Notes under the pieces: generated by a model
What the model was told of the DNA's origin: nothing
Databases searched by the model: none
Seen by the model: only the letters and a program-made list of their open reading frames with translations
NCBI GenBank assembly: GCA_009926935.1
Contig: RFNZ01000002.1
Span: 1-64,000 of the forward strand
Reading direction: 5' to 3'
DNA length: 64,000 nucleotides
From: Pseudomonadota bacterium
Lineage (GTDB): Bacteria; Pseudomonadota; Alphaproteobacteria; Micavibrionales; UBA1664
Translations under genes and position numbers: made by a program
In this document: piece by piece, positions 19,339-22,280 of the stretch
Position numbering within the stretch: position 1 is the stretch's first letter
Layout of the letters: every line of letters begins with the position of its first letter

Positions 19339-20760
19339 TTACCGGTTACACGCCTCGCGCACGGCGGTCACAATATCATCCACCTGCGGGATCGCGAGTT
19401 TCTCAAGGTTTGCGGCATAAGGCAGCGGCACATCCTTGGCGGCTACACGAAGCACCGGCGCATCCAGATAATCAAACGCATGCTGGTTAATGACCGCCGC
19501 GATTTCCGAGCCAATCCCCGCATACGGCCAACCCTCTTCAACCGATACAACACGGTTTGTCTTTTTAACACTCTCGACAATCGTGTGTGCATCAAGCGGG
19601 CGGATAGTGCGCAGGTTAATAACCTCGGCACTGATCCCCATCTCAGCCAGCTTGTCAGCCGCCTGAAGGGCCTTACCAACCATGATGGAAAACGCCGTAA
19701 TGGTCACATCCGTGCCCTCGCGCTCAATACGCGCGCGGCCAATCGGCACGATAAAATCATCATTGGCGGGGCATTCAAACGACTGCCCATACATGATTTC
19801 GTTTTCAAGCACCACAACCGGGTTCGGGTCACGGATAGCGGCCTTCATAAGGCCCTTGGCGTCAGCCGCCGACCACGGCGCAACAACCTTAAGGCCTGGT
19901 ATGTGCCCATACCAGCTTGCATAGCACTGGCTATGTTGCGCGCCCACGCGGGCCGCAGCCCCATTCGGGCCCCTAAACACAATCGGGCAACCAAGCTGCC
20001 CGCCCGCCATATAAAGTGTTTTGGCCGCTGAATTCACGATGTGGTCAATCGCCTGCATCGAAAAGTTCATGGTCATAAACTCAACGATGGGCTTGAGGCC
20101 CCTAAAGGCTGCACCCACAGCCATACCGGCAAAACCGTGTTCGGTAATCGGTGTATCAATCACGCGGCGTGGCCCAAATTCATCCAGCATGCCTTGCGTG
20201 ATTTTGTAAGCGCCGTTGTACTGCGCCACTTCCTCACCCAAAATATGCACGGCATCGTCACGGCGCATTTCTTCAGACATCGCGGCACGCAGCGCCTCCC
20301 GCACCGTCATGGTTTGCGTGTTTTGCTTGTAAAGATTTTCATCAAAGACCGGCGGTTCAATCACGCGCCCTTGCGCGTACAAAATATCGCGGTTGGCAAT
20401 CACAGCACCTGCAGACCCAGCAGCAGCTGCGGTTGCGACAACCGCCGCAGGCGCATCCGCCGCCAAATTGGGGCGGCCGCAGGCCATAAGCGCGGATGGT
20501 ATTTCAGTGACGCTCTCGCCCGCTTCAACCAGCACGGCAATCACGGTGTTAACGGCAACGCCCTCGGTGCCGGCAGGCACAAGTATCTTGCCGATGATGC
20601 CGCTATCAACAGCCTCAACTTCCATCGTGGCCTTGTCGGTTTCAATCTCAGCAATGACCTCGCCGGGCTTCACCTTATCGCCTTCTTTTTTGGTCCATTT
20701 GGCAAGTTTCCCTTCCGTCATCGTAGGGGAAAGCGCGGGCATCAAAATATTCGTGGCCAT
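19339..20760 (-). CDS. pdhB: Pyruvate dehydrogenase E1 beta with N-terminal lipoyl domain
   Basis: Lipoyl domain followed by transketolase-like E1 beta ([16 protein letters not shown]...[17 protein letters not shown]). Confidence 0.95.
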
Positions 20761-20781: not shown

Positions 20782-20813
20782 TTTTCACCGCTAAGACGCT
20801 AAGTACGCTAAGA
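20782..20813. repeat. Inverted repeat type B, left arm
   Basis: ttttcaccgctaagacgctaagtacgctaaga; its reverse complement matches 21215-21245 with 1 mismatch and 1 indel. Confidence 0.9.
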
Positions 20814-21212
20814 AGATTTTACAAACCTTCGGATACCATCCTTAATCATCGGTACATTAAAGTTAACTAAAACACCTGTCTTTATGCCTGCAAGCTTGAG
20901 ATAGCTGAGTATCTGCGCTTCATGAACCGGCAAAATCTTTTCGACGGATTTAAGCTCGACGATAATGCTATCCTCAATAAGCAAATCAAGCTTCAATCCT
21001 GCATCCAGGGTCATTCCATCAAACTGTATCGGTATCGTTTTTTGCCTCGTAACTGCGATTTGCCTTGCTTTAAGCGTATGCACCAAACATTCTTCATAAA
21101 CACTTTCCAAAAGACCAGGGCCAAGGCTTTTATGAACATGAAAAATCGAGTCTACAACCTGCTTTGATAACAGGTCATTCGTAACATCAAGATTGACGAT
21201 TTTTGGTTCCAC
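20808..21212 (-). CDS. GxxExxY family protein (PD-(D/E)XK nuclease-like)
   Basis: IFHVHKSLGPGLLESVYEECLVHTL...LLIEDSIIVELKSVEKILPVHEAQILSYLKL; GTG start 2 nt from the right repeat arm, stop inside the left arm. Confidence 0.92.
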   Translation of the reverse strand: MEPKIVNLDVTNDLLSKQVVDSIFHVHKSLGPGLLESVYEECLVHTLKARQIAVTRQKTIPIQFDGMTLDAGLKLDLLIEDSIIVELKSVEKILPVHEAQILSYLKLAGIKTGVLVNFNVPMIKDGIRRFVKSS

Positions 21213-21214
21213 TC

Positions 21215-21245
21215 TCTTAGCGTCCTTAGCGTCTTAGCGGTAAAA
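21215..21245. repeat. Inverted repeat type B, right arm
   Basis: tcttagcgtccttagcgtcttagcggtaaaa. Confidence 0.9.
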
Positions 21246-21251
21246 AAACCT

Positions 21252-22280
21252 CTACTCAGAAACCGGTATCAGTACATCCGTCCAAAGCTCGTCAGGGTGT
21301 GGCTCGGGCGATTGCTGGGCAAATTCAGCACTCTCATTCACAATTGCTTTGATCTCTTTTTCAAACGGGTCAAAATCGGCCTCCACAAAACCTGCTTGGC
21401 CAATCATGACGGCTTTCAGCTTCTCAAGTGGGTCGCGCTCGGCTTTGGCTTTTTCAAGCTCTTCTTTGGAACGATACTTACCGGGGTCCGACATCGAATG
21501 CCCGCGGAAGCGGTACGTATTCATTTCCAGCACGTAAGGCCCTTTGCCTGAACGCACATGGTCAAGCACCTGCCGTGCCACGGCCTGTACTTCAAGCACA
21601 TCCGAGCCATCGACTTTTTCACCGGGGATGCCAAAGGCTTCCCCGCGGCGCCAAAGCTCGCCCGCCGCGTGGCGTGATGCCGCCGTGCCCATGCCGTATT
21701 GGTTATTTTCAATCACGTACACAACAGGCAACTTCCAAAGCGCGGCCATGTTCATGCACTCGAATGTTTGCCCTTGGTTCGCGGCACCATCACCCATATA
21801 GGCCAGTGTCACGCCCTTATCGCCGCTGTATTGGTGAGCGAAAGCAAGACCAGTCCCAAGCGAGCCGGACGCACCAACAATCCCGTGCCCGCCGTAAAAC
21901 TTGGCCTCGGATGAAAACATGTGCATTGAGCCACCTTTGCCGCGGCTATACCCGCCAATGCGGCCAGTCAACTCAGCCATCACGCCTTTCGCATCCATGC
22001 CGCAAGCCAGCATGTGTCCGTGATCGCGGTAGGTCGTGATAACGGTATCCTGAGGCTCTTGTACCGACTGGATACCCGTCACAATCGCCTCCTGCCCGAT
22101 ATACAAATGGCAGAAACCGCCAATCAGGCCCATGCCGTACAACTGCCCCGCTTTTTCTTCAAAGCGGCGGATAAGCAGCATGTTGCGGTAAAGCTTTTTC
22201 AGCTCGGCCTTGTCAGGCAATTTGCGGGTGTTGGAGAGATTTTTGGCAGTGTCGGATTTGATCTTTTTCACAGCGCTCAC
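21252..22280 (-). CDS. pdhA: Pyruvate dehydrogenase E1 alpha
   Basis: GFCHLYIGQEA, GGHGIVGASG, YMGDGAANQGQTFE, TYRFRGHSMSDP. Confidence 0.96.
   Translation of the reverse strand: MSAVKKIKSDTAKNLSNTRKLPDKAELKKLYRNMLLIRRFEEKAGQLYGMGLIGGFCHLYIGQEAIVTGIQSVQEPQDTVITTYRDHGHMLACGMDAKGVMAELTGRIGGYSRGKGGSMHMFSSEAKFYGGHGIVGASGSLGTGLAFAHQYSGDKGVTLAYMGDGAANQGQTFECMNMAALWKLPVVYVIENNQYGMGTAASRHAAGELWRRGEAFGIPGEKVDGSDVLEVQAVARQVLDHVRSGKGPYVLEMNTYRFRGHSMSDPGKYRSKEELEKAKAERDPLEKLKAVMIGQAGFVEADFDPFEKEIKAIVNESAEFAQQSPEPHPDELWTDVLIPVSE

Follow-up and report, generated by a model that had tools for sequence, protein, structure and literature searches.

Among described systems, the closest are REP/REPIN sequences with RAYT (TnpA-REP) proteins, in which short palindromic extragenic repeats flank one nuclease-like gene, gene-less copies are in excess, target duplication is not clear and repeat types are protein-specific; the enzyme is an HUH Y1 tyrosine transposase acting on single strands, and the repeats are GTAG-tagged hairpins. 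CGTC-tagged REPs (dRS3 in Neisseria, RPE-4/6 in Rickettsia) are dispersed palindromes consisting of a single hairpin with a CGTC tag, and were reported without a dedicated transposase (PMC3733652). The intervening sequence (IVS) of 23S rRNA with its S23/four-helix-bundle protein (PF05635) is a selfish unit of about 430 nt with inverted ends and one small gene, MITEs moved by DDE transposases are short gene-less copies that share the ends of a gene-bearing element, and homing endonuclease genes are small nuclease genes at sites empty in relatives. The locus compared with these systems lies between pdhA and pdhB in the window, which is the whole stretch of DNA analysed (64,000 nt), and consists of the following features.

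20782..21246, strand not assigned: whole GxxExxY element, 465 nt, with both same-genus genomes lacking it at the orthologous junction
20782..20813, + strand: outer arm on the gene's 3′ side, TTTTCACC with three CGCTAAG units (20789-20795, 20797-20803, 20806-20812), spacing 8 and 9
21215..21246, - strand: outer arm on the gene's 5′ side, inverted copy with three CGCTAAG units (21233-21239, 21225-21231, 21216-21222), spacing 8 and 9
20808..21212, - strand: GxxExxY gene, 134 aa, predicted PD-(D/E)XK nuclease, GTG start
21252..22280, - strand: pdhA (E1 alpha; PF00676), upstream neighbour, host gene outside the element
19339..20760, - strand: pdhB (lipoyl domain and E1 beta fusion; PF00364, PF02779, PF02780), downstream neighbour, host gene outside the element

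The arms are near-perfect inverted copies, as an earlier note on this DNA had described (32 nt each, 94% complementary), and are the sole close pair of such arms in that part of the window; the exact CGCTAAG array occurs at a single site in the window (expected 0.06), and the spacing of its units, 8 then 9, is mirrored on the two sides. The note was also right that the arms enclose a single gene, the GxxExxY gene (matches to TIGR04256 and PF13366, nothing else inside), and that the stop codon is encoded in an arm, the TAG (20808-20810) falling within the third unit. Its proposed ribosome-binding site, aagagag, is doubtful because it abuts the GTG with zero spacing, and AAGGA, located between arm units 2 and 3 and 10 nt before the GTG, is the better Shine-Dalgarno candidate. 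The description of the repeat as (c)gctaag-type holds here, where the units are CGCTAAG, but not generally, as the heptamer varies with the clade of the protein; many of the copies contain no gene.

The protein scored 143.6 bits against TIGR04256 (curated cut-off 35) and 139.4 bits against PF13366 (curated cut-off 22). Conserved residues are G33xxE36xxY39, D76, E86xK88 and Q100xxxY104, and the catalytic set (E36, D76, E86xK88, Q100xxxY104) is invariant or nearly so. The AlphaFold2 model of the window protein was confident (pLDDT 92), and its best PDB matches were Cas4-like SSO0001, LHK-Exo and lambda exonuclease, with E values of 1e-3 to 1e-2 only; a sequence search for solved-structure relatives of the family found none. 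The protein is a predicted member of the PD-(D/E)XK superfamily, given its modelled fold and the residues of its catalytic set (E, D, ExK, QxxxY), which is of the RecB/Cas4/lambda-exonuclease type.

For comparison of flanks, GxxExxY loci were taken from relatives, Pseudomonadota, named genomes of many phyla and a set picked irrespective of score or arms, and were scored as flanked if they passed either an inverted-repeat test or a strict array test, with shifted windows of the same loci as controls. Because the background of a loose detector (any two units) was high (243/364), only three-unit or alignment-based tests were used. GxxExxY genes are generally flanked: 130 of the 166 loci with sufficient flank passed (78%), compared with 1.0% of 489 shifted controls, and strict arrays of 3+3 units were present in 97/166 loci and 0/489 controls. 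The labelled rows of the protein tree cover at least 11 phyla, and this array was found in 0/28 PF05635 loci, which served as a family control. Arms were weak or absent at about 22% of GxxExxY loci, and several seeming exceptions turned out to use other arm words (CACGGAC in genome G189, CACGGAA in G085). Decayed GxxExxY remnants were also recovered, including locus L284 (G172:C41), where the arms are still intact, and many further partial matches in the Pseudomonadota search.

That the element was inserted between pdhB and pdhA was borne out by the two other genomes of the genus: the pdhA-pdhB gap is 491 nt here, 8 nt in G002 and 5 nt in G001, whose E1-alpha proteins are 94% and 85% identical to that of the window, respectively. 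The genome of the window holds two further GxxExxY genes, with arms of CACTAAG in the first and of CACAGCG in the second, and G002 has an empty site for each; the three copies occupy three unrelated loci. Orthologous sites were empty as well for gene-less elements in the own-genus comparisons, and in a further genome pair (G047/G055), one GxxExxY element and several elements without a gene are missing at the orthologous site; one element of this pair lies directly 3′ of a stop codon, and the relative's empty site reads ...CTGTAA-TC-TACTCC.... Where a long open reading frame runs toward an arm end, 76 of 192 arm ends lie within 0-19 nt of its stop codon (raw count). Beyond the arms, similarity ends within about 5 nt (TTnAC). 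Over 113 elements, there was no excess of target-site duplication (mean 5.64, compared with 5.38 for a null of shuffled pairs), so the joining step would be unlike that of most transposases; local duplications seemingly present at C11 and atpG-atpD did not generalise. Plasmid records almost never contained a GxxExxY gene (7 of 72,556), and phage records never did. Unlike MITEs, the GxxExxY element has neither a target-site duplication nor a DDE transposase, and its ends are heptamer arrays; it differs from homing endonuclease genes in that the recognition words are inside the element on both sides, with no split target, and the insertion places are unrelated.

Short gene-less palindromes of the CGCTAAG, CACTAAG and CACGAAG types are numerous in the genome of the window, frequently within operons, between genes such as atpG and atpD or fabA and fabB. 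Four of these copies resemble each other at 82-96% across their entire 102 bp although they lie in different places, one of them inverted. Three near-identical gene-less copies in the same genome (L020, L022, L011) share about 20-40 nt of similarity past one end (tttatggattgcttcg...), which is perhaps a compound repeat. At another locus of this genome (L007 1485-1762; C2, about 94,974-95,251), GCTAAG arms surround a tautomerase-like ORF (PF01361) and not a GxxExxY gene.

Strict array patterns, for which a reversed-pattern control was essentially zero, were then related to the presence of the gene. Among 57 relatives, arrays were present in 16/18 gene-bearing and 6/39 gene-lacking genomes (p = 1.5e-7; genomes are not independent samples), with totals of 203 arrays in the 18 and 33 in the 39; among 299 Pseudomonadota, they were present in 26/39 gene-bearing and 9/260 gene-lacking genomes (p = 2e-20, the genomes again not being independent samples). 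The link was retained inside the best-sampled family (p = 0.003), and neither the gene nor arrays are present in the two sister species. Intervals between convergent strict arrays fell into classes of 63-76, about 80-215 and 400-600 nt, and 10 of the 11 intervals of at least 300 nt hold a GxxExxY gene or remnant, the eleventh being a tandem-repeat tract. The repeats are thus not an operon-internal element without association to the gene, a possibility that the earlier note had set against its own reading. The exact word of a resident gene was carried by 41/92 gene-less arrays, compared with 14.9 under a null in which gene sets were swapped between genomes (p = 5e-5; words transcribed by hand). 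Three genomes have strict arrays and no detectable GxxExxY gene (13 in G055, 12 in G020, 53 in G194), which would have to be put down to loss of the gene or to a different enzyme.

The presence of gene-less repeats alongside the gene in a genome is shared with REP/RAYT, and the GxxExxY element works most like that system, with an unrelated enzyme: PD-(D/E)XK in place of HUH Y1, and arrays of three spaced heptamers, with no GTAG tag, in place of GTAG-tagged hairpins. An unrelated host or transposon enzyme could instead spread the palindromes, with the GxxExxY gene, for example a solitary defence or repair nuclease, benefiting from its place inside. Such an origin of the palindromes would accord with the excess of gene-less over gene-bearing copies, the few genomes with arrays but without the gene, the one copy with a tautomerase and the absence of a transposase-typical target-site duplication. 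It is unlikely, however, because the link between gene and array presence is too tight, a passenger would not be expected as the cargo of 10 of 11 gene-sized intervals, and covariation of its protein with the word and spacing of the repeat would be surprising.

This covariation was seen across the family. The word consists of CRC and four variable letters, usually NNAG, in forms such as CRCNNAG, CRCNNAT and CRCNNAA, and spacing falls into classes of 8-9 or 10, AT words being spaced 10 and 10 in nearly every case. On a tree of 96 proteins, words ending in AT required 2 changes, compared with a shuffled mean of 11.5 (0/300 as low), the last two letters of the word required 7 changes, compared with 19.4 after shuffling, and word positions 2, 4 and 5 together with spacing exceeded each of the 300 shuffles in clustering; this clustering denotes coupling and not binding, since the shuffles leave protein relatedness in place. 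An independent first version of the test gave the same coupling. CACGAAG is common to grouped proteins from Desulfobacteraceae, Planctomycetes, Methylococcales and family f39, and single genomes contain several types of GxxExxY protein that differ in their words. Mobility and the coupling of word and protein are both well supported.

Coupling of protein and site is also what a repressor and its operators would show, and the arm overlaps the start codon region, so the inverted heptamers might let the nuclease repress its own gene, with ordinary horizontal transfer and homologous recombination as the cassette's only means of movement. We consider this the least probable of the explanations, given that an array stands on both ends of the gene, that insertions are at non-homologous sites and that recent gene-less palindromes are dispersed at other loci.

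Between the arms, words match at 92% and spacers at 59% (null 38%), and units of different rank match each other as well as partner units do. This contrast and the rank-independent match are as expected of words bound by protein and would fit these better than a stem alone. The same data bear on whether the element acts as RNA, in the manner of the 23S rRNA IVS, with arms that pair in the transcript and are processed so that the message of the host operon is shielded from the inserted gene. Once paired, the arms would enclose the gene in a long stem (fold -145 kcal/mol), insertion occurs in operons such as pdhA-pdhB, and the size is near that of the 428-nt Coxiella IVS (PMC4990558). The spacers are nevertheless poorly paired, matching of different-rank units like partners is a pattern of protein sites, and arm mismatches on the gene strand were not significantly enriched for G.U (57 G.U and 41 A.C, p = 0.13). 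In addition, the IVS resides in 23S rRNA helices, is removed from the RNA and encodes a helical-bundle protein, whereas the GxxExxY element occupies a pdhA-pdhB site, encodes a PF13366 protein and had no match in an Rfam search, and RNA processing alone leaves its spread unexplained; an RNA-level unit is accordingly very improbable.

The locus is probably best explained as a minimal mobile element composed of two inverted heptamer arrays and one PD-(D/E)XK GxxExxY gene, whose nuclease moves its own and gene-less copies. We infer that the protein binds the words and is the enzyme that moves them, and each chemical step is proposed on the same footing. The nuclease would bind the three words of each arm and pair the two arms, either as a synapse or as a hairpin available to either strand, and would make its cuts at the ends of the arms or close to them; host repair would then join either the element itself or a copy into AT-rich intergenic gaps, often directly behind a stop codon. 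The same protein may act in trans on short gene-less palindromes carrying its word, and because of this proposed action, such palindromes would accumulate where the gene is present.

Other small proteins are packaged in a similar way. The parallel GIY-YIG cassette that the earlier note had mentioned lies at 34930-35295 of the window, where inverted CGTC-type REPs (27 nt, 89% complementary) stand on either side of the gene; because CGTC REPs were reported without a dedicated transposase (PMC3733652), the GIY-YIG protein is a candidate for that role. Like the gene-less heptamer palindromes, CGTC REPs are dispersed within the same and related genomes and are sometimes nested in gene-less elements (L232-L234): in G055 (L228-L234), CGTC-REP palindromes are nested in gene-less CACGAAT/CACAGAT elements. 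Free-standing PF05635 (23S_rRNA_IVP) genes of Pseudomonadota (loci L339-L368) lie between iterated inverted repeats that have a period of 7 nt and different words (for example GTGAGTA, AGGCAGT and GCGAATG), and 61% of PF05635 loci passed the inverted-repeat test, compared with 4% of controls.

More broadly, GxxExxY proteins could be enzymes dedicated to moving a class of minimal elements that crosses phyla, each element having two heptamer arrays with protein-specific words and one PD-(D/E)XK gene, and could be one of several independent cases of a tiny protein driving its own family of intergenic palindromes in bacteria (GIY-YIG with CGTC REPs, a four-helix bundle with 7-nt-period repeats), a generalisation that we hold to be evenly balanced between right and wrong. 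The element type is apparently widespread and undescribed: no description of GxxExxY-linked repeats or of the heptamer words was found in the open-access literature, to which the search was confined, preprints and most subscription journals lying outside it.

The finding offers a biological setting for the very common annotation "GxxExxY protein" and for a class of bacterial intergenic repeats, and suggests an answer to the stated question of which enzymes move palindromes that seemingly have no transposase, such as CGTC REPs. If the proposed reading is true, DNA can be spread by a single PD-(D/E)XK nuclease with no transposase involved, and the matching of protein clades to heptamer words in nature would constitute a ready-made, testable recognition code.
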